64,000 bases of DNA, taken from contig CM055113.1 of NCBI GenBank assembly GCA_029204225.1, positions 17,262,445-17,326,444 of the forward strand. Reading direction: 5' to 3'. Position 1 is the first letter of the stretch. Every line of letters begins with the position of its first letter. The notes under the pieces were generated by a model. It was given only the letters and a program-made list of their open reading frames with translations, had not been told where the DNA came from and did no database searches. The position numbers and the translations under genes were made by a program. The stretch comes from Diphasiastrum complanatum (taxonomy: Eukaryota; Streptophyta; Lycopodiopsida; Lycopodiales; Lycopodiaceae). This document shows positions 4,267 through 53,261 of the stretch, piece by piece.

Positions 4267-4947
4267 TGTAAAAATTACAGCAAATAAGGATCCTAAAACA
4301 CTTGAAATGATGAGGAAAACAATAGATTATGATTTCATAAGATTAGCACAAGTTGAACCATCAAAATCCATCAAAATCTATGCTTGAACCTCACTAAATG
4401 GCCCAAATCCTTGAAGAAGGCTTCACACGTGTGAAAGTACGGCCTCCCACAGTCTGAGTACTGTACACCAGACCTACATTCAATCCTATAATAATTAGTA
4501 ATCACAAGTACTCAAACAATTATGAACATAGAGAGCAATTGCACCATTATGAGAGAAAAAACATGAAATTGCTTGATTGATTTTGGTGAGATATCATCAC
4601 CTATATATACATGATCCATCACGGTTTTGGGCAGGTATGAGTAGCCCTAAACCTATCCCTAATGCTAATTTTGGTGGATCTTTCATCCCTACCAAGTTAG
4701 GGTTGGAATCTTGGAGATCCCTCAACAATGCAAAAATTACCAAAAATAGCTCCTATTTTTTCTCCCTTGTATCTAAGCATAATTTGGACTCATTCCAAAG
4801 GTTCTAACACTTAGGTCTACTTGAGAACATCCTTATGAATGGAATCCTATGCTATTTGGCACGTGTGACAAGCCACATCATGACCATCTAACTATTTACA
4901 AGTCATATGACCAAAACTAGTCAAGCTAGAATTGTGAATTTTTAACA
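4267..4947 (-). repeat. 3' LTR of copia 1
   Basis: On the plus strand starts TGTAAAAATTACAGC and ends TTTTTAACA. A CACCTATATATACATG block about half way along may contain the TATA box. The short ORF at 4577-4807 recurs exactly in the other LTR and is not a gene. Confidence 0.95.
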
Positions 4948-9741: not shown

Positions 9742-10423
9742 TGTAAAAATTACAGCAAATAAGGATCCTAAAACACTTGAAATGATGAGGAAAACAATAG
9801 ATTATGATTTCATAAGATTAGCACAAGTTGAACCATCAAAATCCATAAAAAATCTATGCTTGAACCTCACTAAATGGCCCAAATCCTTGAAGAAGGCTTC
9901 ACACGTGTGAAAGTACGGCCTCCCACAGTTTGAGTACTGTACACCAGACCTACATTCAATCCTATAATGATTAGTAATCACAAGTACTCAAACAATTATG
10001 AACATAGAGAGCAATTGCACCATTATGAGAGAAAAACCATGAAATTGCTTGATTGATTTTGGTGAGATATCATCACCTATATATACATGATCCATCACGG
10101 TTTTGGGCAGGTATGAGTAGCCCTAAACCTATCCCTAATGCTAATTTTGGTGGATCTTTCATCCCTACCAAGTTAGGGTTGGAATCTTGGAGATCCCTCA
10201 ACAATGCAAAAATTACCAAAAATAGCTCCTATTTTTTCTCCCTTGTATCTAAGCATAATTTGGACTCATTCCAAAGGTTCTAACACTTAGGTCTACTTGA
10301 GAACATCCTTATGAATGGAATCCTATGCTATTTGGCACGTGTGACAAGCCACATCATGACCATCTAACTATTTACAAGTCATATGACCAAAACTAGTCAA
10401 GCTAGAATTGTGAATTTTTAACA
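9742..10423 (-). repeat. 5' LTR of copia 1
   Basis: Same sequence as 4267-4947 apart from about four substitutions and one 1-bp indel. It adjoins the primer-binding site on its left. Confidence 0.95.
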
Positions 10424-10428: not shown

Positions 10429-12029
10429 GTGAAACACATTGATTCATTACATAATCCCAATTTGCTTTCGAGGGAGCTCATGTTAACCTTTTGCAAGACT
10501 TTGAGATGTATTGATGAAGATGAGTCCCTTTAACAAAATACTTGAATCTCATCAAATTTTATTGGAATCTATTGAAAGATTGCATTTTTCAAATGGTTAA
10601 AGAGTCTTTCTCCTTTAAATGTTTTTCTATTTTTACTGTGGAGGGTTGGTCAAATTCATACCAAAATGTTTGTTGTCATCTCCATTGTGACTACTTTCTT
10701 GTATTACTATCACCATATTTCGAATGGATTTATTTATGCGCTAGTTGATTCAATTATGTGTACCGAGTACAAATAATTCTAATGAACCTTATGGACTTTT
10801 GCTTTGATATATACTAGCATATGGAGTTCAAATATATTGCTAAATAACCTATGGATAGTTAAATCTTCAATATTTGTTTCAAAAGAAACCAATTTTCAAG
10901 TTTACTTGAATCATGTCAAAAAACTACCAAACTTTACTCGACATTATACAATGATATTTTGAGTTACTGAAATACTTAATTTTGGGTAAATGTGTGTGTG
11001 AGTGTGAGTGTGTGTGTGTGGTGTGTGTGCGTGTGTATGTGCGCGTGCGCACGATGTCAAAAGTAACATGGTCTATGCGGTTCTTTAAATGTGCGATTTA
11101 TTTATTGCAATTCGCATTCTTTTACAAATTCACTCATGCAATTAATTATGGCATGTTTTGTTTTGAGTCTGTTTAGTATGGTTTTGACTAGGTCACAAGC
11201 TAAGTTGCAACAAAGATGGACACTCAAGTTGTAGTGTATGTTTCTTCTAATGAGGGAGGACCTAGCTGACCCTGACTTGATAAAGGTATTCCTAACATTC
11301 CAATGTTGTTGTGTGAAAGTTTTCTTGTAGATGCAGCATGTGAAGTTGGTTGTTGTGAGATGGGTTGCTCAATCTACATACAATTAAAAAATCTGGGTAG
11401 TGAAGAAAACCCACTAGTACAAGATGTGGAATATGACTACAAGTTTTATTGTATGATTTTTATACAATTTTTTGAAAATAAATTATGTGCACTTTAAATA
11501 AATAGACACATTTAGATTTGTTGGATGTACTTGTATGCTTTTTTTAGATTCAATCAATTAGATTTAGATTTAATCTACAATAGGTCATTTCTATCAATTG
11601 ATTCATTTCAAAACGCTAAAACATGGACAAAATAAATATAACATCACACTTGAAATAATTTTTTTCATATACCATTAAATAATTGTGATCGTCTCTTTAA
11701 ATAGATTGGAGATCAAAATACAAAAAGCAGTGTATTTGGTTTACTTGTGAAGGAGACATTATGTGCAACTGGAATCTGTGGATCTCGTCTTTGATAAATG
11801 CAAAAATGTTTAGGAGAACATAGTTGATCACTAATTACGGATTGAAAACATGCTACAAGCAATCCAATGTGACCTATCGGTTTTTATATAAGATGCAGCA
11901 ATTTAAGTATGATGTCAAACAACTGAGTTAAGATCAAAAGCATATGTGTGCATGATAGTGAATAGATCTTCTAACCATTTACAGCACCAATTGCCAGCTC
12001 CTCAGAACATAGCAAAAATGCATAAATAT
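10429..12029. other. Anonymous AT-rich sequence
   Basis: No conserved coding block is seen. It contains a GT-rich simple repeat at about 10990-11053 that passes into alternating GCGC. Short open frames at 10542, 10982 and 11303 have no recognisable motif. Confidence 0.5.
10990..11053. repeat. (GT)n microsatellite with alternating GC end
   Basis: Imperfect GT repeats pass into GTGCGCGTGCGCAC, a purine-pyrimidine alternation. Confidence 0.85.
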
Positions 12030-12366
12030 CAAGTCCTCAAACAAAAAAAATCTAAAAGAAAACTACTAGATGTTGTCTATAACAAATATACCACTGTACA
12101 AAGTCAAGGTTAACAGTAACTTAAAAGGGCCATCTCTAGTTAAAACACTTTACGTGAAACTCAGCTAAAAGGGCACACTAAGCAGGGAGGATGTGAAGAG
12201 TCAAGACCTCAAACAAAAAAAATCCAAAAGAAAACTACTAGATGTTATCTATAACAAATATACCACTGTACAAAGTCAAGGTTAGCAGTAACTTAAGAGG
12301 GCCATCCCTAGTTAAAATACTTTACGTGAAACTTAGCTAAAATGGCACACTAAGCAGGGAGGATGT
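12030..12366. repeat. Tandem duplication, two 165-bp copies
   Basis: 12030-12194 and 12202-12366 match almost base for base. Both run from a CCTCAAACAAAAAAAATC block to GCAGGGAGGATGT, and differ at about ten positions. No coding content. Confidence 0.9.
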
Positions 12367-13006
12367 AGAGAGCAACAGACGAGATATTGTCTCTTAAATG
12401 GCTAGTAAATTTTAAAACTTTCATAGAAAACGAGTGAATAGTTTAGAAATGTAAGAAATAAAAGTGGAAACAAATATTGTCATCCTCTTTCCCATAAATA
12501 TTTATTCATTCACGGTGGCCTAGATTGCCCATAGTGAGTGAAATTTACAAAATGGAAGTCCAAAAGGAAAAAGACCTTTGTAAGAAAGGAAAACCTTTCA
12601 CATTTGTTAAAAATAAAACCTATTGCATGACTATGAAGAGAGGGGCCAGGACGCAGATATGACCCATCAGGCAAATGCATAACCTAAGCATCTAGAATAC
12701 TAGGTGTATTTCAAATTTGAATCTGCAAAAGTAAAGACAAGGCTACCTAAACTTAGTTTTTACTCTTGCAGGTTCCTTGTACACCCTATAATGTTTGCCT
12801 CTACATAGCCGCTGGTTGTTGCTCACAAGCCCACAAGCCCAGCGCAAACAGGATCATGCTAAGTGAAATTGATCTAAGCTCTACATTAATAGGCTATCAT
12901 AAAGATGGGAGCAATTTTTTTTCCAAAATCAACTTTGTTCGTTCTGCACTAGGTCTGGAATTCCAAAAGAGGGTACATAAGTCATACAAAAGTATACTTT
13001 CTTGAA
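12367..13006. other. Anonymous sequence with a short plus-strand ORF
   Basis: A 79-aa frame at 12766-13005 follows a plausible splice acceptor (CTCTTGCAG at about 12770), but its product is not recognised. The rest holds nothing I can assign. Confidence 0.3.
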
Positions 13007-17412: not shown

Positions 17413-37743
<20,331 letters not shown>

Positions 37744-38215: not shown

Positions 38216-38700
38216 TTAGGATCTAATTCATAGATTTTGCATCATTGAAACATGAAAAGACAGCATGTAGGCTAATTTATCAATCTCCCATGAAGAATGG
38301 CTAACTATCATTACATGAAGTCACAAGACAATAGGTTCTCCCATGAAGAGCCCAAGCAATACCAATCAGTAAACTGAATAATCAATGTACAAAGTGCCCT
38401 ATATATATCTAACTAATGAACCCTAATGTACGAATTCAAAAATGAAGGGAGGCAAAGTATATGGAGAGAAAATAGTGCCCCTCACTCCACATATGACTCA
38501 ATATATAAAGGCACTTGGCTAGTCAATGTTAGAAATAAGGCCCAAGGCCAATCCTAAGCATAAAAAAGGCTCTCTAAGGGCCTATAAATAAATAATATAA
38601 AATGCGTAACTAGGAACAAAAGTATAAACAAAAGTAAATGTAAAAAGGCCCGCAAAATATATGCAGAGTAGCCTAGCAAGCCTATAGCCTATAGTCCATA
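38216..38700 (-). repeat. 3' LTR of the gag-only element
   Basis: Aligns with 41300-41762, with several substitutions and short indels. Confidence 0.87.
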
Positions 38701-40984: not shown

Positions 40985-41250
40985 TCACCAAAAAGATGAT
41001 GTAGTGGGCACTAGACAGCCTCCAATAAAAGTTGTAAACACCCTGCAAAAAGGTTGGAAAATCTCCCAAAGAAGATGATGTAGACATGCAATGGACAGCC
41101 TCCAATAAAAGCTATAAACACCTGCAAAAAGGTTGGAAAATCTCCCAAAGAAGATGATGTAGATGTGCGATGGACAGCCTCCTATAACCACTCTGCAAAA
41201 AGGCTGGAAAATCCACCGAATAAGATGATGTAGATGGGCGCTCAATAAGA
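40985..41250. repeat. Three tandem 79-bp units
   Basis: Units containing GACAGCCTCC, CTGCAAAAAGG and AAGATGATGTAGA recur with starts near 41013, 41092 and 41171. They lie in the leader between the primer-binding site and gag. Confidence 0.92.
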
Positions 41251-41299
41251 TCTGAAAATGAGCTTCAAAAACCGACAAGACAAGTGCTCTGATACCAAG

Positions 41300-41762
41300 T
41301 TAGGATCTAATTCACAGATTTTGCATCATTGAAATATGAAAAGAAGGAATGTAGGCTAATTGATCAATCTTCCACGAAGAATGGTTAACTAGCATCACAT
41401 GAAGTCACAAGACAATAGGTTCTCCCACGAAGAGCCCAAGCAATACCAATCAATAAGCTGAATAATCAACGTACAAGTGCCCTATATATACCCCACTATT
41501 GAACCCTAATATAGGAATTCAAAAATGAAGGAAGGCAAAGACTACGGAGGAAAAATAGTGCACCCTACTAAGGGCCTCCACTCCACATATGACTCAATAA
41601 ATAAAGGCACTTGGCCAGTCAATATTAGAGATAAGGCCCAATCATAAGCATAAAAAAGGCTCTATGCGCAACTAGGACCAAAAGTATAAACAACAGTAAA
41701 TGTAAAAGGCATACAGAATTTATGCAGAGTAGCCCGGTAAAGCTTGTAGCCTGTAGTCCATA
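41300..41762 (-). repeat. 5' LTR of the gag-only element
   Basis: Partner of 38216-38700, beside the primer-binding site. Confidence 0.87.
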
Positions 41763-43360: not shown

Positions 43361-45860
43361 CATCGTAAAAAAAAAAAAACCAGAAACCCGAATTTCGGCC
43401 TCCTCGCGCACAGAACCGCGCCAGCAGTGGAGGAGGCAAATCTTTTTTCTGAGAGCTGTGGGCGTCCAATCTTCGCAAGTGAATACTTGGCAAGCATCTA
43501 CTCGACGATACGGAGTTGGTGTGCACGGTGCCGGGTGGGTCTGAGCTTCGTGGAGAGCGAAACGACCAATTTTCGATATTTGGTAAGTGTAGGCTTGATT
43601 TTTTGCAATTGTTGACATTGAGCTGTAGGCAACCAAATCGAGCGTAGTTTGGCTCTAGACCACCTTTCTTCACGCCCATAGTGATTCCTACAGCATCAGT
43701 TTCAGCCGTTACGAAACGCCTAGCGAGATTTGAACACCACATTCCAAATGCTTGTGTATTTTGGCCATTTTCACAGAATGGCTTGTTGGAAACTTAGTGA
43801 GGTGATGTCTGAGCCTAGAATGCATTTCCACATGCTTGCACAGAATCCTATGACCTCCGTTCCACCCGTCCAAGTCCGTATCACAAATTTCAATTTTCAT
43901 GCCCTGATTCCATACTTTTTAGGGTTTAGGCGTGGACCATTGTGCAAACATCTGCTAGGGGCGCGGTTTAGGCCCACACTCCACTCCTTTATGCCTGCAC
44001 GGACTCCGACGGTAAAGTCAGTCGCCTGTTATCCCTCATACAGAAATTATTCTATCCCACGCCCTAATCTCATGTTCTTCTTTGGTATAATGTGTGAACT
44101 GGAATCGTTCTGATGTATGCTCTGGTATTTTGAGCTCTATTTGAGCTCGGTAATGTTGTTCAATGCAATGTATTTTTTTTCTACTGAACGTTTGCCTGAT
44201 TATTTGTTGTTTGCAGGTTTAGGGTCGTGTTGATATGATGCCAGTGCGGGACCGAGGCCTTTGGGCCGAGGTTGAGCTTACCGACGGGGATGTGGGCACA
44301 CACCAGGGCTCAGGCACCCGCAGATGGAGATGCTTGCATTGCGGTGGTCACTTCACGGGATCACTCACCAGGGTTAGGGCTCACTTGCTGCGGGTCAGAG
44401 GGCCAGATGGGCGGACATTGGGCATATCTGATTGCCCCAGGATTTCTGATGAGGATCTGCAGAGGTTGTCTACGATGTACGGACCCGGTATTGTATCACA
44501 GGGTTCTAGACAGGGACAGGCAGCAGGAGCAGCTACAGGCAGGCATGCAGGAGGGCTCACAGGCAGACAGGCAGGGCCTACCATGGATATTGGGCCCAGT
44601 ACATCACGGGCAGGGCATGGTATAGCTGCAGGGCGTAGTACATCATGGGTTGGGCATGGTACAGGTGCAGGGCCCAGTACATCACGAGCAGAGCATGGTA
44701 CAGCTGCAGTACAACACGGGCAGAGCATGGTTCAGGTGCAAGGCCTAGTACAGCACCTTCAGTTCCATCCGCAGCAGCAGTAGGACCATCAGATGAGCAT
44801 GTTGGTTCAGCAGCAGCGGGTGCTTCTCGACCCTCCTCCTCGGCAGCAGATGCACCACTTGCTTCAAAAGATGTTGCCAGAGAGAGTGACACACCCACGG
44901 ATCAGCCATCCGTTGGGCATGCTAGACCACGAGCACCATATACACAACAGAGAGGGGTTAGGCCCAGGCAGCAGACCCTTGATCGATGCGGCTGGCAGAG
45001 AGAGCAGCAGGCCCATTGCACTCGACTGTGTGGCCAGTTCTTTTACGAGTGCGGCATTGCCTTTGCTGTTGCTGACACTTGGATGTTCAGGGAGTTCTGT
45101 GCACAGATGGCGGCCGTGGATGCTACATGGACACCTCCCAGGCGAGAGGCACTACGAGGGAGGTTGCTTCGTCAGGAGGAGGAGACCATCACGCGGGAGT
45201 TGAGTTCCATTCGCTCAGCTTGGCAGCAGTAAGTAACTTGTCTCTGTAATCTCTTTGCATGTGTTTAGGATTCACTGGTGCCGCAATTTTTGCATGTAGC
45301 TAATGGGTGTTTTGCGGCAGGTATGGATGCACGATATTGAGTGATGGATGGACCGACATTCGTCGGCGATCCGTCATCAATGTCTTGGTTTCTTGCCCGC
45401 TTGGCACAGTATTCCTACGTGGCGTGGATGCCACTCGAGGTGGTGACGCCATCACAGCCGATTTCATATGGGAGGTCATTAGAGATGTTATTGCTGACAT
45501 CGGAGTTGAGCACGTGGTTCAGGTTGTCACCGACAACGCCTCGAACTGCAAGCAGATGGGCGAGATTATGATGAAGGAGCACCCCAGCATTGTGTGGACA
45601 CCCTGTGCTGCACATTGCATAGACTTGCTCATCCTGTGTGCGCTTCCATGGATCAGAGAGGTATAGTTTGTTCTATTTGCTATGCTTTCTTCCTTCGATG
45701 CTGCTAACCACATCTCAACTACTGTCTAAACTTTTTTACTGGGTGTTTGTGTTACAGATCACTTCTACGGCCATGCGCCTGGTCACTTTTGTCACCAGGA
45801 AGAGGCGTGTGTTGGCCCTGTTCCGCACTTTCTCCACCCTAAACCTGAAGAAGCCCGCAC

Positions 45861-45865
45861 CCACG
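45861..45865. repeat. Target site duplication of copia 2, left copy (CCACG)
   Basis: CCACG ends the interrupted hAT exon and recurs at 51358-51362. Confidence 0.96.
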
Positions 45866-46519
45866 TGTGAGAGATTTCAACTAGTTTAGTCTAGTTTAGT
45901 CACATTTTGGTAAATTGTTAATAAGAGGCCAAAACTCATTTTAGACTTAGAGATAAACTTTTTGAAGTTATATTAGTTTAAACTACATTCAATAAACACT
46001 TTTGGAAAGTGTGGGAAAGTTGGTAGTCGAGTTTGAGAGAGATTCAAATTTGAACTTTGGGTACATTGAATCTAGACCCAAAAATAGTAGGGTTTACATT
46101 TTGGAGGGAAAGCCAAGTGGCCAAATAGGGTTTGGAAACTCTATAAAAGGATGTAACTATTGGAGAGACACATCTTCTCTCTTCTCTCTCTCATTTCATC
46201 ATTATACATGGTTCTCTTTGGGTTCTACTACTCATTGGTGCACTATCTTGGTGTTATCTTGCAATCTTGTGTGTAGAATGATCATTTATTGCTATTTTCG
46301 GTTCCACACGTGTGAAATACAGTAGGGTATTGTAATTGTACGAACAGCAAACATATTTTATGTTTTGGTTCATGTTTGATCAATATCTCTTAGAGTTTGC
46401 ATCTCATTTTGTATGTAGATGCTGATTTTTCTACATTGGCAGGATTGTTGGTTTGCTCCTTATTGTAACCAAAGATTTGGGACTTGGATTGGATCTTGAA
46501 TGATCTGAAATCCTTCACA
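45866..46519 (+). repeat. 5' LTR of copia 2
   Basis: Starts TGTGAGAGATTTCAAC and ends CCTTCACA. CTCTATAAAAGG at about 46138 is a good TATA box, so transcription should begin about 30 bp later. The 107-aa ORF inside it recurs in the other LTR and is not a gene. Confidence 0.96.
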
Positions 46520-47120
46520 TGGTATCAGAGCTCTTGTGTTTCAGGTTATGAAAGGATCAGCCATCTTTAGCAAGAAGTTTGAGGAGTTACCAATGCTAGA
46601 GCATGCTAGATTGATCTCTACTCAAAAATCAGCATTTTTGCATGTGTAGAATTGATCTTTTGTAGGTCAAAACTCAATATAGGGTTATATACTTGATCAA
46701 TTCCGATTTAACACTTGGCTTACTGGAATTAGATGTTTTTTGGTGCATTAGGAAGGTCTCATTGGAGTCTACAAGAAGATATACCAAGTTTCTAGAAATT
46801 GCATGTAGAATTTGAGATATTCAATTTTTTGTGATTTTGTCAAAACCCTAATTTTGATTGGATCTCTAGTTTGTGAGGTTACTGAACTTTATTTGAGTGT
46901 GTTTCAATCTTAGGAAGTGGCAAGAATCATTAGATTGAGGATAGATCATAGGTTGATCAAGATTTCACTATTCTATGTGTTGATTTTCTAGTTAGAAGTG
47001 CTAGAAGAGATTTGAGAGGTTCCATATCTTTGTGATTTCTTCTTGAGTTCATTTTTTGACATTCAAGAGAGTGCTTTGTGCATTGGAACAGGTTGAAAGA
47101 GAAGATCAGGTCACTTCAAC

Positions 47121-50100
47121 ATGGCTACAAGTGGTGGATTTATGTTGGAGAGCAATGATAGGCTTACCTCAATCAACTATTCTACTTGGAAGGTGAGGAT
47201 GGAGTCCTTATTGGAGATGAATGAGTTGATGGAGATTGTTGCAGGTGTGGAGGAGAGACCTCAAGCACCTCAAGATCAAGTGAGGTATGACAAGAGAGCA
47301 AAGAAAGCTCTACACATGATTAAGATGAATGTTACCAATGAACTTCTCAAGGAAGTTGGTAAGTGCACATCATCTTTGGAGGCTTGGGAAATTTTGAAAA
47401 AGCTTTATGAATCCAAGTCTACATCAAGAGTGCTTACTCTTAGGAGGCAAATCTTTCAAAGTTTGCAAAAGAGGGAAGAGAGTACTCATGCTTTTGTTTT
47501 GAGGGTTAAGGCATTCAATGATGAGTTAGCATGTATTGATGAAAGCATTAAGGAGGTAGAGCTTGTTCAAGTTATACTTAATGGCTTGTTGGATGATCAT
47601 GCTAATCTTGTTCAAAGTTTTGCTATTCAAAAGACTTTGCCAAGTATTGTGGATTTGCAAGAGATCTTGGTGAATGAGGAGTATAGGCTTCAATCAAGAG
47701 GAGGTGGATCTACATCGACATCTCATTATGAAGAGGATGCTATGTTCATCAAAGGCAAGTTCAAGGGCAAAGGCAAAGGCAAGTGGTCTAAAGGGCAAGA
47801 TCAAGGTGAGACTTCTTCTTTTGGAAAAAAGAAAGATAAGTCTAAGTTGAAATGCTTTTATTGTGGAATCAAAGGGCATTTTGCAAATGAATGTTTGAAG
47901 AAGCAAAGAGATGAAGGTAGCAAGCAAATCAACTTTACTACTAATGATGAGGGTCTAGGTGGTGGTGATTCTCTTTTGATGTGTTCATCAAGTCCAATAT
48001 CAAGTGAAGGTGACAAAGATTCATGGTGGATTGATAGTGGAGCTAGCTCACACATGACTAGTCACAAGGAGTTCTTTACTTCTTTGGTCACTTATGATGG
48101 AGCCAAGAAAGCAATTCACATGGCCAATGGTGGTGAGTGTGTGATTGAAGGTATTGGTTCAATTCCTATTTGTCTCTCTACTAATAGGAAAGCAAGACTT
48201 GATGGTGTTCTTTACATTCCTTCACTTTCAAAGAATTTGCTAAGTGTTGGTCAAATGATAAAGAAAGGATACATGGTAAAGTTTGGTGGTGATGCTTGTT
48301 TCATTACAAAGGAAGAAATCTTGGTTGCTAGGGGCAATAGACAAGGTAGACTTTTAAAGCTTGATGCTTTTGTTATGGCTAACAAAAAGGATGGAATGGA
48401 AAAGGAGATTGGTCTCAACTTTCCAAAGTTATCTTTTAGCATCAATAAGATTGTTGGATCTTATGCAAAGTCTAACAAGCTTCCTTATGCTAGATCTAGG
48501 TCAAGATCTAATATGCTTCTTGGAGATGTTCATCTTTGTGCTAACTTGGCTAGTCTTGAGGATAATGATGGTGTTTCAATGGTTCTTCATGGCAAGTGCA
48601 AGCATGCAAAAGATAAGGAAAGAGCTAACTTCATCAATGGAGGTGAAGGTTCTTCCTTGGAAAAGATTGTTGTTAATGATTTCTTTGATCATATGTCAAA
48701 AGATGTTGCTAGGTGCATTCATGAAGGAGGTGGTTCTTCTACATTTTTTAGTGATGAGTCCAAGAAAGTCATTTTTGCAGCAAGTGGAGTCACATTTCCT
48801 CATAAAGAGAGTAGATCAAATGGTTCTATCAAGAGACTTGGTGAGGGAGATAGTCACAAGTCAAGAAGAAGAGAAGTATGTGAAGAGTTCAAAGTAGGAT
48901 GTACTTTGAATGATGTCATTTTGAATGATAGTGAGGAGGAATCATTATCATGTGAGTCATTACCTAAAACATTGAGTAGAAGTTCTTGTTTGAAAAAAGA
49001 GAGTACTTCAATCATTCTTATGTTGAATGTACTAATCATTTTTTTCATGGCTTCTAATGTTTTTGAGGTTTCTACTTCTTATGATGCAATCATTAAGAGG
49101 GAGTCTTATGAAGGAAAGAGCAATGAAAGATTGGTTCTTGGGAAGATCCAAGGCATGGATCTCACATCTCTTCATCAACTCAAAGGATTCTATGATTATG
49201 AATTGATCACTCATGATCAAGATGGCAAAAAGTTGGTTGGAGAAGACTACATGGAACAAATCGAGAGGCAATTTCTTCAAGGCAAGGGAGATCTCATTGG
49301 TGAGCTTATTGAGGTTTGTTATGGACTCAAGAGGGCTGGATTTATTAGGTTTGATACTCATCTTCACCTACTCTACTTCATGTTGGATGGAAAATTTGGA
49401 ATCTATCTTTTGATTTATGATGGTGACATTGGTGACATTGTTTTCACTAACCTTTGTGGGAGATCGAGATCAAGCATTGATGAGATCTTGTTGAATCTAG
49501 ATCATATGTTTGAGAGGGAGTATTTCCAGAGGTTCAGGTCTGAAGATATTCATATCTTTGATATCTTTGATGATCAAGAGAAAGGTAAGCACATGGAAGC
49601 GACTCACTTTGCTTTATTCACATGTTTTGAAGAATTTTCTTGTGTAGATGAAGCTATGCAAGTGGATATTGGTTCTCATGTTTTTCATACTAGAAAATCA
49701 AGTAATGGATCTGGAAAAAAAAGTTTGTTTAATGACTTTGATGATCAAGAGGAAGATCAAGAGGTTGGTCTTAAAGGGCTTCAACAACACAAAAGGAAAG
49801 GTGGCAATTTGGAGCTAGTCAAGAGTATCAAAGGAAGGTTATTTGGCAAAGATGTTATGGATCTATTTTTGCAGCTTATTGAAGACTCAAGTAAGGTCAA
49901 AGGAGCAGCAAGGAAGTGTTGTTCAAGTTTACTTTACTTGTTCTATCTCATGTTTGAGCTATTTCATGTGGATGTGTGCAAATTGTCAAGATATGGACAA
50001 ACTAGCTACATTGTCTTGCAATATCTTATTGTTGGAGTTGTACTAGCATTCTTGGCTGGTTTTGCTGATGGAAATGAAGTTATTGGAGGTTCATTATGTC

Positions 50101-50708
50101 ACTCATCCATGGCTAAGTTCTCAAGTGTTGAGCTACTTGGTGCCAATACTTGGGGATTGTCAATTTTTGGTGAATTCATGGTCATTTTCTTGTGTCAAGT
50201 AGATCTTGAAGATGGACTAGTGCAAATTACTTGGTTTATGGAGTCATGTGGTGCTAGATTTGCATCATGTATATACTCACCTACTCATGGATTTCCAAGG
50301 TTTGATGGTGTCTTGTGGCAAGATGGAGATGGAGGCACATTCATGGAGTTTTATGGTGAAGACATATCAAGAAAGGACAAAGTTGGAGGAGACAAGCAAG
50401 CAAATGGTCATCACTCACATTTATTGTTTGGTTGCTGTAATTTTCCAGAGAGTTCAAAGTTTGAAACATGGAGGAATCATTTCATTTACATTCTATTTGG
50501 TTCTTCATGTTCTAGTTATATCTTGATGTGTAAAATTGATGTAAGAAATAGTGAAGCATCCAATTTGGACACTATTCTCTATATCAATTATGAAAGATAC
50601 TTTAGAACCTTAGAAAGAAGATCTATACTTAGGATGGAGATCATTCTAAAGTTGGATCAAAGTTCTATTGTCAAAACTATGCCAAAACTAGTTGAAGAGG
50701 GAGTGTGA
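47121..50708 (+). CDS. Gag-protease protein with a long altered pol-derived tail (1195 aa)
   Basis: Residues 1-200 are a UBN2-type copia gag (INYSTWKVRMESLLEMNELM); a basic Gly/Lys stretch and a zinc knuckle (CFYCGIKGHFANEC) lie near 244; the protease is canonical (WWIDSGASSHMTS, near 303) up to LLKLDAF near 415. Beyond that a normal copia has integrase then RT. Here only echoes remain: LPYARSRSRS before LLGDVH, DYMEQIERQF near 715, YGLKRAG near 733, and LLIYDGD near 764 where active RTs have Y-V-D-D. No D-D-E integrase core or RNase H motif is visible. Three hydrophobic segments (about 628-648, 934-950, 966-985) could span a membrane. The stop codon TGA lies at bases 3-5 of the 3' LTR. No frameshift or stop occurs in 1195 codons. 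Function of the tail is unknown. Confidence 0.88.
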   Translation: MATSGGFMLESNDRLTSINYSTWKVRMESLLEMNELMEIVAGVEERPQAPQDQVRYDKRAKKALHMIKMNVTNELLKEVGKCTSSLEAWEILKKLYESKSTSRVLTLRRQIFQSLQKREESTHAFVLRVKAFNDELACIDESIKEVELVQVILNGLLDDHANLVQSFAIQKTLPSIVDLQEILVNEEYRLQSRGGGSTSTSHYEEDAMFIKGKFKGKGKGKWSKGQDQGETSSFGKKKDKSKLKCFYCGIKGHFANECLKKQRDEGSKQINFTTNDEGLGGGDSLLMCSSSPISSEGDKDSWWIDSGASSHMTSHKEFFTSLVTYDGAKKAIHMANGGECVIEGIGSIPICLSTNRKARLDGVLYIPSLSKNLLSVGQMIKKGYMVKFGGDACFITKEEILVARGNRQGRLLKLDAFVMANKKDGMEKEIGLNFPKLSFSINKIVGSYAKSNKLPYARSRSRSNMLLGDVHLCANLASLEDNDGVSMVLHGKCKHAKDKERANFINGGEGSSLEKIVVNDFFDHMSKDVARCIHEGGGSSTFFSDESKKVIFAASGVTFPHKESRSNGSIKRLGEGDSHKSRRREVCEEFKVGCTLNDVILNDSEEESLSCESLPKTLSRSSCLKKESTSIILMLNVLIIFFMASNVFEVSTSYDAIIKRESYEGKSNERLVLGKIQGMDLTSLHQLKGFYDYELITHDQDGKKLVGEDYMEQIERQFLQGKGDLIGELIEVCYGLKRAGFIRFDTHLHLLYFMLDGKFGIYLLIYDGDIGDIVFTNLCGRSRSSIDEILLNLDHMFEREYFQRFRSEDIHIFDIFDDQEKGKHMEATHFALFTCFEEFSCVDEAMQVDIGSHVFHTRKSSNGSGKKSLFNDFDDQEEDQEVGLKGLQQHKRKGGNLELVKSIKGRLFGKDVMDLFLQLIEDSSKVKGAARKCCSSLLYLFYLMFELFHVDVCKLSRYGQTSYIVLQYLIVGVVLAFLAGFADGNEVIGGSLCHSSMAKFSSVELLGANTWGLSIFGEFMVIFLCQVDLEDGLVQITWFMESCGARFASCIYSPTHGFPRFDGVLWQDGDGGTFMEFYGEDISRKDKVGGDKQANGHHSHLLFGCCNFPESSKFETWRNHFIYILFGSSCSSYILMCKIDVRNSEASNLDTILYINYERYFRTLERRSILRMEIILKLDQSSIVKTMPKLVEEGV

Positions 50709-51357
50709 GAGATTTCAACTAGTTTAGTCTAGTTTAGTCACATTTTGGTAAATTGTTAATAAGAGGCCAAAACTCATTTTAGACTTAGAGATAAACTTTT
50801 TGAAGTTATATTAGTTTAAACTACATTCAATAAACACTTTTGGAAAGTGTGGGAAAGTTGGTAGTCGAGTTTGAGAGAGATTCAAATTTGAACTTTGGGT
50901 ACATTGAATCTAGACCCAAAAATAGTAGGGTTTACATTTTGGAGGGAAAGCCAAGTGGCCAAATAGGGTTTGGAAACTCTATAAAAGGATGTAACTATTG
51001 GAGAGACACATCTTCTCTCTTCTCTCTCTCATTTCATCATTATACATGGTTCTCTTTGGGTTCTACTACTCATTGGTGCACTATCTTGGTGTTATCTTGC
51101 AATCTTGTGTGTAGAATGATCATTTATTGCTATTTTCGGTTCCACACGTGTGAAATACAGTAGGGTATTGTAATTGTACGAACAGCAAACATATTTTATG
51201 TTTTGGTTCATGTTTGATCAATATCTCTTAGAGTTTGCATCTCATTTTGTATGTAGATGCTGATTTTTCTACATTGGCAGGATTGTTGGTTTGCTCCTTA
51301 TTGTAACCAAAGATTTGGGACTTGGATTGGATCTTGAATGATCTGAAATCCTTCACA
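50704..51357 (+). repeat. 3' LTR of copia 2
   Basis: Appears identical to 45866-46519. Confidence 0.96.
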
Positions 51358-51362
51358 CCACG
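51358..51362. repeat. Target site duplication of copia 2, right copy (CCACG)
   Basis: The hAT reading frame resumes directly after it at 51363. Confidence 0.96.
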
Positions 51363-53261
51363 CGCTTTGCGTTTTACTTCTTGGTGCTAGAGTGATTGGT
51401 GGTGGTGAAGGACGCATTGCGGCGGATGGTTTCCAGCGTGGCCTTCCGGGACTTAACAGACCTCCCCCATGCGGCATTTTTCCAATCCACTGTGTATGGC
51501 GACGAGTTCTGGAGAGCTGCTGAGGAGATTAGTGGGATCCTACTACCCATTTACAGAGTGCTGCGTCTGGTAGACCGTGAGGGGTGCACCCTCGGTCTCA
51601 TTTACGAGTTCATGGAGCGCATCGGCGAGGGGATTCTGTTGTCAGCCTTGGACGAGCATAGGTATGACTTTTCAGTGTCACTCAAGTCAGATGCGTTTCT
51701 TTTATGCTCTGGTTTAGTGATTGTTGTAATTTGTCTGCTGCAGGAGGCGCGAGATCTCACGCATCTGGGAGGCCAGATGGGACTATTTCCACCGACCCAT
51801 CCACGCCGTAGCCCACATGTTGCACCCCTTGTGGCGCTCTACACGAGAGAGGGACGATCCAGAGCTGCACCGGGGATGGGTGGAGTACACGGAGCGCGTA
51901 TGGCCCGGACCAGGTACGTGTGAGAAATTGTTTGGTAGCAATGTTACTGCAGTATTGTACTCATTGGTAGTGTCTGAATTCGAGGGGTCTTACATGTGCC
52001 ATGTTTTTCCTTTTGCCAACAGGTCCGATGCTGGCCAACATTGCAAGCTAGCTGCTCGCATTTGAGCGCTTCCAGTTTCCTTTCGATGGAGAGCAGAGTC
52101 GGTGGAGGGAGGATCAGCTGAGGCCCGTTACATGGTGGTGCATCCACGGGCGCAACACAGGTGACCTAAGGCGATTGGCTGAGAGAGTCCTTGCACAGGA
52201 CTGTTCTGCAGGAGCTTGTGAGCGGAATTGGAGCACCTGGGCCTTGTATCACACGCAGAAGAGGAAAAGGTTGTCCATCGAGCAATGTAGGCGGTTGGTG
52301 TTTGTGAACACCAACGGCCGTATGCTGAGGCGCACACGAGGAGAGGGTCAGATGCTCGACGTGAGTCACATCATCACCCCTTTTTTCTTGGTATGCTTTG
52401 ATGAATTGATTTGCTTTCAAAATATGCAGTGAGTTGCACAATACCTGCCTGACAACAATGTATTGTTTTTGGTTGCAGGTGGACCCTGACACTTGCTTGG
52501 TGGATTCGATAGCTGCTGCTCCTCGGGCACCACCCACACAGGAGGAGATGGATGATGAGATCAATAGAAAGCTCTACAGACAGGCACAGGCTGACGCACG
52601 GGCTTTACGGCGGCAGAGGAGGACAGAGAGGCAGAGGGAGAGGGCTGAGGAGGGAGATGACGAGGTCTCGGAGGGTGGAGAGATGCTCGGGGCAGACTAT
52701 GTGGAGGGGGAGGAGTGGGTTGAGGGAGATACAGAGGAGGACGAGGAGATGTGGGCGGAGGCACAGGGGGATGACTTGGCTGACCTGCTGGTGGACCCTG
52801 ATGCAGAGACAGAGGAGGAGCCAGCCATTCCTGCACGTAGGCCTAGGGGGAGACCTAGAGGTTCTAGGAGGGGGGGGCTGAGTACTCTTTTTGTAGACAA
52901 GAGTGGAGCATCACAGGCAGTCGTCGGCCAGGCATCATCACAGTGGATAGGGCCATCCCAGGGCGTAGGGTTACAGCCACCTGACACACAGGCACGACGG
53001 AGTAGACACAGGGCTGGGGGCAGCCAGATGGGGGCCAGAGGAGGGGAGAGAGGCAGAGGCAGAGGCAGAGGCAGAGGTAGAGGCAGGGAGAGGGGGGTGG
53101 TCCAGAGCCAGGGCACGCAGCAGGGATCCAAAGCACGCAGCAGAACCAGGGCCACACCACGGCATATGGCTCCCTCCAGTTCCGATTCATCTGCGGACCC
53201 ATGGGACCTGCAGTCCACAGATTCGGATGATTTATCCTACCATGACTCTGACGAGCCTTAG

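Follow-up and report, generated by a model that had tools for sequence, protein, structure and literature searches.

This study concerns a Ty1/copia-derived retrotransposon of Diphasiastrum complanatum (Lycopodiaceae), located in a stretch of 64,000 nucleotides from contig CM055113.1 (GenBank assembly GCA_029204225.1, positions 17,262,445 to 17,326,444 of the forward strand). The whole stretch is called the window hereafter, and its first letter is position 1 of all coordinates. The element combines an intact Gag-protease (Gag-Pro) front with a long tail in the same open reading frame (ORF), bounded by two long terminal repeats (LTRs) and a target site duplication (TSD). Its parts are listed below, with residues counted along the ORF.

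45861..45865, no strand: left copy of the TSD, CCACG, read directly
45866-51357: Ty1/copia element, total length 5,492 bp
45866..46519, plus strand: 5' LTR, 654 bp, TGTG...CACA, with TATAAAAGG at 46142 (found by eye)
46520..47120, plus strand: untranslated leader, 601 bp
46520..46531, plus strand: primer-binding site (PBS) TGGTATCAGAGC, 12 bases, directly 3' of the 5' LTR
47121..50708, plus strand: single ORF, 1195 codons and TGA, zero internal stops
47199..47699, plus strand: Gag, Retrotran_gag_2 (PF14223), residues 27-193, Pfam E 9.6e-22
47850..47894, plus strand: zinc knuckle (PF00098), residues 244-258, 22.0 bits against a cut-off of 20.8
48024..48272, plus strand: Pol_BBD (PF22936) with the DSGA protease motif, residues 302-384, E 1.8e-24
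48363..50705, plus strand: open tail, residues 415-1195, no Pfam match
48363..48800, plus strand: faint integrase (INT) trace, residues 415-560
49221..49610, plus strand: faint reverse transcriptase (RT) trace, residues 701-830
50694..50703, plus strand: polypurine tract GAAGAGGGAG, directly before the 3' LTR
50704..51357, plus strand: 3' LTR, 654 bp, whose bases 3-5 are the stop codon of the ORF
51358..51362, no strand: right copy of the TSD, CCACG, read directly

The structural features of a copia element are all present, namely paired LTRs with TG...CA ends, a TSD, a PBS and a polypurine tract. An earlier sequence-only reading had described the LTRs as identical in appearance and the 5-bp duplication as perfect; pairwise comparison indeed finds no difference across 654 bases, and CCACG stands on both sides. 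The 655th repeated base in that comparison is the last G of the TSD, paired with the G preceding the 3' LTR. With zero differences seen, the 95% upper bound on LTR divergence is about 3/654. The substitution rate of rice is 1.3e-8 per site per year, which would place the insertion at less than about 0.2 million years ago, a figure that is illustrative only, as this rate may not be that of the host. The element inserted recently. Its PBS, which we take to be of the initiator-Met type, also adjoins LTR-like repeats at three further places in the window, and thus the PBS alone identifies no partner.

The ORF occupies the internal region from the end of the leader to just within the 3' LTR, and it is free of stops over all of its codons, as had been claimed. 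Its front is of the canonical kind, with a copia-type Gag, a CCHC knuckle (CFYCGIKGHFANEC) and a copia protease domain, all three above their Pfam cut-offs, so that the description of a fresh insertion with intact Gag, zinc knuckle and protease holds. The protease motif reads WIDSGAS, in which the DSG of the Pol_BBD region is presumably the catalytic aspartic-protease motif, and a solved copia capsid structure matches the Gag at 2.1e-5. A second copia element on the minus strand (4267 to beyond 10148; LTR repeats at 4267-4672 and 9742-10148, 99-100% alike), below called the relative, shares the same PBS and 42.8% amino acid identity in Gag-Pro over 530 columns, whereas its LTRs differ and its INT and RT are recognisable but in broken frames. 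The gag of the relative is recognisable as well, its pol is spread over three frames, and DLG takes the place of DSG in its protease. Between the two elements, 411 aligned codons of residues 1-414 gave proportions of nonsynonymous and synonymous differences (pN and pS) of 0.32 and 0.64. With synonymous sites this close to saturation, the lineages are old, and their Gag-Pro has been under constraint.

Past the protease the domains of a copia pol are missing from view. Pfam reported no match for the whole tail, nothing over the cut-off for tail pieces and other-frame ORFs, and neither rve, gag_pre-integrs nor RVT_2 for the ORF or the tail pieces, while the matching pieces of the relative gave RVT_2 at 4.2e-71 and rve at 5.6e-15. 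For more sensitive profiles, copia homologues were collected from contaminant contigs in GTDB genomes. Of the 36 loci fetched, a match to the relative with E no higher than 1e-3 was obtained for 24 of the 25 on genome contigs and for none of the 11 on viral contigs. Length rules left 19 RT and 20 INT sequences; the pairwise reference tests described below used 14 of 20 RT and 15 of 21 INT sequences, totals that include the relative. Nine of the loci are copia gag-pol from a GTDB genome that bears the label Trichormus sp.; the contigs concerned are eukaryotic contamination, perhaps from an Azolla fern, the presumed host. Profiles built without the relative gave the tail -1.4 bits (RT) and -3.7 bits (INT), where the relative's own pieces obtained 448 and 390 bits. 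When the relative was included, 1000 tail shuffles reached up to 5.6 (RT) and 10.2 bits (INT), exceeding the score of the tail itself. The match of the RT profile in the tail, at residues 709-739, reached -1.6 bits, and the RT and INT profiles found nothing in any of the six frames of the tail.

Judged from its sequence, the element is without a recognisable INT or RT, and the sequence-only reading was correct in placing the loss of working enzymes from about residue 415. The copia order of INT before RT-RNase H is carried by no domain match, only by weak traces that stand in this order. Since the INT and RT domains are unrecognised, membership in Ty1/copia is taken from Gag-Pro, and the element is filed as copia-derived and non-autonomous. 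That the tail still works as a copia INT-RT-RNase H, only very far diverged, is in our view very improbable: its 781 residues, compared with roughly 900 in the relative, and the pol order of the traces would suit such an enzyme, but the profile scores speak against it, YVDD is replaced by YDGD, the RNase H comparison stays below a z of 0.2, and none of the results favours enzymatic activity. A captured domain in the tail was rejected on the same Pfam searches of the tail, its pieces and other-frame ORFs. Rfam gave 0 matches in 45000-52000, no relatives of the tail were found in IMG/VR or among plasmids, and 17 pattern matches in GTDB contigs yielded 0 confirmed relatives. The internal repeats of the tail are short ones only; one of 28 bases, at 49557-49584 and 49728-49755 and 86% alike, encodes FDIFDDQEK and FNDFDDQEE.

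The two faint traces come from pairwise scores of tail segments with the INT or RT piece of the relative, set against shuffles. Residues 415-560 scored 83 (shuffles 49.0+-8.0, 0/200 as high) with INT, and residues 701-830 scored 86 (56.0+-8.1, 0/200) with RT, whereas residues 561-700, 831-960 and 961-1195 show no likeness to either piece. When the whole tail was compared with the relative, 2/300 and 19/300 shuffles scored equally well. The RT trace carries YMEQ...YGLKRA together with YDGD, and YGLKRAG and Y-D-G-D were the only RT landmarks that had been noticed earlier. Against the 15 INT references the INT trace is gone (z about 0), while the RT trace keeps a z of 3.1-3.7 against the 14 RT references (0/60 shuffles). 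In a six-frame test of 198 comparisons between tail windows and the gag, INT and RT of the relative, INT in the true frame reached a z of 4.9, an implausible antisense match to gag 3.5, and RT in the true frame 2.8. A pol hidden in one of the other frames or on the opposite strand was rejected, as the true frame is best for INT and RT and the six-frame profiles were empty. An RNase H remnant suspected by eye at about 950-1050 was likewise dropped, since residues 930-1195 gave z of -0.3 and -0.7 against 14 references and of -1.1 and 0.1 against the C-terminal piece of the relative. With z between 2.8 and 3.7 across tests, the RT landmarks remain weak. On such similarity, descent from pol is likely for residues 701-830 and possible for residues 415-560, and it is unsupported for the rest of the tail.

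It is here that a recombinant origin has to be considered, in which a template switch near residue 415 joined Gag-Pro to a foreign coding sequence, either an ORF or a host gene, that was already open in its source. The DNA likeness to the relative breaks off abruptly at 48373, about residue 418, and the identity drops from 21-32 to 10-15 per 50 residues past residue 450; pol similarity is absent from residues 831-1195, and the coding periodicity described below is strong up to residue 930, all of which would fit a foreign piece. Against it stand the in-frame traces at residues 415-560 and 701-830, weak as they are, in INT-RT order, the exact coincidence of the ORF end with the LTR, and the lack of any Pfam match in the tail. 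As these traces are weak, the recombinant origin keeps some probability, though we regard it as unlikely.

The openness of the tail is itself far from trivial. Tail-like random sequences of order 2 (n=2000) contain 38.2 in-frame stops on average and never fewer than 19, and 39.4 stops are expected from the phase-specific base composition of the tail, against 0 observed. When the RT piece of the relative was randomly substituted down to the similarity of the tail, means of 22-26 stops per 376 codons arose, with a minimum of 13, and this decay excluded indels, which would add frameshifts. The earlier argument that a dead pol should gather stops quickly is supported, and the openness of the tail results neither from chance nor from neutral decay. 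A meaningless fluke or a dead copy, with the open frame peculiar to this insertion, would fit the fact that a single copy was examined, but it is contradicted by the 38 expected stops and by the freshness of the insertion, which mirrors its parent, so that the parent was open too; we give this explanation hardly any credence.

Whether the frame is held open for a protein or for the RNA can be approached through three-base periodicity. It exceeds the stop-free null in residues 415-640 (0/500 null sequences as high), 641-830 (0/500) and 831-930 (1/500). In 190-codon windows up to residue 930 it amounts to 52.8, 43.7 and 34.4, while neutral decay simulated without stops has 95% points of 20.8-23.7 once d is at least 1.5, and 0/200 of its windows reached 43.7 at each d tried. 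Further on, values of 14.4 (931-1120) and 11.7 (1006-1195) lie inside the stop-free decay range, and G at codon position 1 over position 3 is raised in 931-1195 (0/500 null sequences as high). The intact RT piece of the relative has a periodicity of 17.8 only, and low periodicity is thus no argument against coding. If stops alone were avoided, periodicity ought to be no higher than in random sequence without stops, and because residues 415-930 stay above this level a protein is favoured: the periodicity supports the view that residues 415-930 are constrained as translated protein. Residues 931-1195 are open with a weak coding signal. Synonymous codon choice resembles that of Gag-Pro in some parts of the tail (0/300 in 415-640, 641-830 and 931-1060; 56/300 in 831-930; 16/300 in 1061-1195), but it was dropped as evidence, as its control failed and wrong frames scored higher in places.

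These results bear on the alternative that the tail sequence is free and its frame is held open for the sake of the RNA, either to avoid an untranslated region of more than 2 kb and nonsense-mediated decay, or as a length or packaging spacer. This would agree with an ORF that reaches the edge of the 3' LTR, with a stop-free stretch at 931-1195 whose overall periodicity is at the stop-free null, and with the loss of the conserved pol sites. It is at odds with the periodicity of residues 415-930, far above both the stop-free null and stop-free decay, and a search judged by titles and the start of abstracts found no study describing such a decay effect for plant LTR elements. This alternative is improbable as a whole. 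The sequence-only reading had left the choice between a protein-level constraint and an RNA or structural spacer; the protein now gains ground for residues 415-930, where the evidence goes against a function as RNA or spacer only, while such a function may apply to residues 931-1195.

The same reading had counted three hydrophobic segments and raised a membrane-active tail. In a 19-residue Kyte-Doolittle mean two segments (630-648 and 964-982) reach 1.6 or more and five reach 1.4, but 165/500 shuffles have at least two segments over 1.6. The top peak of 2.44 was attained in 20/500 shuffles. In random DNA of similar composition and free of stops, the mean is 1.45 segments in 415-930 and 1.74 in 931-1195, and 5/20 copia RT pieces have at least one. 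Since hydrophobic segments are no more numerous than composition gives, the idea of a membrane-active tail finds no support, even if individual peaks are fairly high.

The explanation that we favour, with modest confidence, is a semi-autonomous Ty1/copia retrotransposon consisting of Gag-Pro and a long pol-derived tail in the same frame, mobilised in trans. An element without RT and integrase needs both to be supplied in trans. Its RNA would be packaged partly through its own Gag, and would be copied and inserted by an autonomous relative recognising the same ends. The 780-codon tail would at least in part be a same-frame descendant of pol, translated together with Gag-Pro as its C-terminal extension and probably cleaved off by the protease. 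Once the enzymatic sites were lost, residues 415-930 may have been kept as protein and residues 931-1195 held open, perhaps under weaker constraint, and the role of the tail would be structural or that of an adaptor.

Several observations weigh against this explanation. No partner with the same LTR was found within the window, and a single copy was examined. The sign of pol descent is weak, as the RT score was retained in 24/60 and 19/60 shuffles of 40-residue blocks, which indicates that the RT trace comes from a short segment near YMEQ...YGLKRA. The periodicity of residues 931-1195 equals the stop-free null (111/500 as high), and the synonymous-usage test is mixed, with a control in which the relative gave 0.096 in the true frame and 0.231 in a wrong frame. 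The structure prediction proposed earlier for the tail gave no confident fold: the two models have predicted local distance difference test (pLDDT) values of 30.8 and 42.6, a very low confidence that lends nothing to a membrane role either. Foldseek returned 0/298 matches at E 0.001 or better; among the best 50 of the 298 there were no RT-labelled entries, and a lentiviral intasome chain stood at rank 7 (E 1.4).

Non-autonomous elements of related build have been described. RLG_Quinta of wheat and oat is a non-autonomous LTR element whose intact Gag ORF is continued by a DUF1 and lacks RT and INT; RLG_Cereba is proposed as its mobiliser, the partner being known by shared LTR ends and PBS (PMC11302176). 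Here too a Gag ORF runs into a tail without known function, with RT and INT missing, and the one copy has an open tail with periodicity up to residue 930; unlike the Ty3/gypsy-type, centromeric Quinta, the present element is Ty1/copia, has a protease, and its tail is far from any family. RLG_Sabrina_SA of wheat is termed semi-autonomous, with an intact GAG-Pro ORF and without RT or INT (PMC9744471). The intact GAG-Pro ORF and unrecognised RT and INT found here are of that type, whereas Sabrina_SA is Ty3/gypsy and a long open tail past the protease is not described for it in the available part of the source. Among copia elements, TR-GAG AT5TE33540 of ATCOPIA63 has two LTRs and a single Gag ORF of 562 amino acids, and TR-GAG elements are reported to have transposed in Arabidopsis ddm1 without a pol of their own (PMC8704663), which shows that a copia element can be mobile even if it lacks pol. 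The present element is similarly copia-type with two LTRs and a single Gag-bearing ORF, but this ORF of 1195 codons adds a protease and a 781-residue tail. The degenerate RLC_Angela subfamilies of wheat are non-autonomous copia lineages close in size to autonomous ones (PMC9744471), and in contrast to the fully open frame here, many frameshifts and stops interrupt their coding sequence. Non-autonomous Gag(-Pro) elements are thus known, and what may be new is the length of the open, unrecognisable copia tail; no copia element with a comparably long one was found among the open-licence papers listed by literature searches, which is weak evidence of absence.

The surroundings of the element comprise the following features in addition to the relative.

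21095-25816, minus strand: Ty3/gypsy element whose two ORFs encode gag, protease, RT, RNase H, integrase and a chromodomain
38216-38545 and 41300-41641: pair of direct repeats resembling LTRs, accompanied by a minus-strand PBS of the Met type
45307-45666: DUF659 coding piece (Pfam), just left of the insertion

With the second copia, the Ty3/gypsy element and the further LTR-like pair, the window is repeat-rich. As the DUF659 piece, which we take to be hAT-type, adjoins the left end, the insertion site probably lies within an older transposon; Pfam found no DUF659-like match in the right flank. Three 67-base leader repeats lie at 41042-41258 beside the LTR-like pair, and at 12029-12372 a 172-base unit is duplicated in tandem, its copies being 94% alike.

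At present the element is a single good example of Gag-Pro with a tail without known function, an arrangement that has precedent in wheat. A more specific form of the protein reading, which we put forward as a tentative and minor possibility, is a pseudo-pol, in which catalysis was lost and the region was reshaped as a non-enzymatic, Gag-Pro-fused protein of about 500-780 residues, for example one that recruits the RT and integrase of the partner into particles or gives an edge over the helper. If true, it would be the retrotransposon counterpart of a pseudo-enzyme. If other copies were to share the open tail with a ratio of nonsynonymous to synonymous substitution rates (dN/dS) near 1 and no stops, this would be direct evidence of selection on frame openness itself and would offer a testable way to study how RNA surveillance acts on retrotransposon genomes. 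If instead they shared it with a dN/dS below 1, the family would represent a copia lineage whose pol lost its enzymes and persisted as another protein, and it would reveal what a helper-dependent retrotransposon must encode besides Gag.

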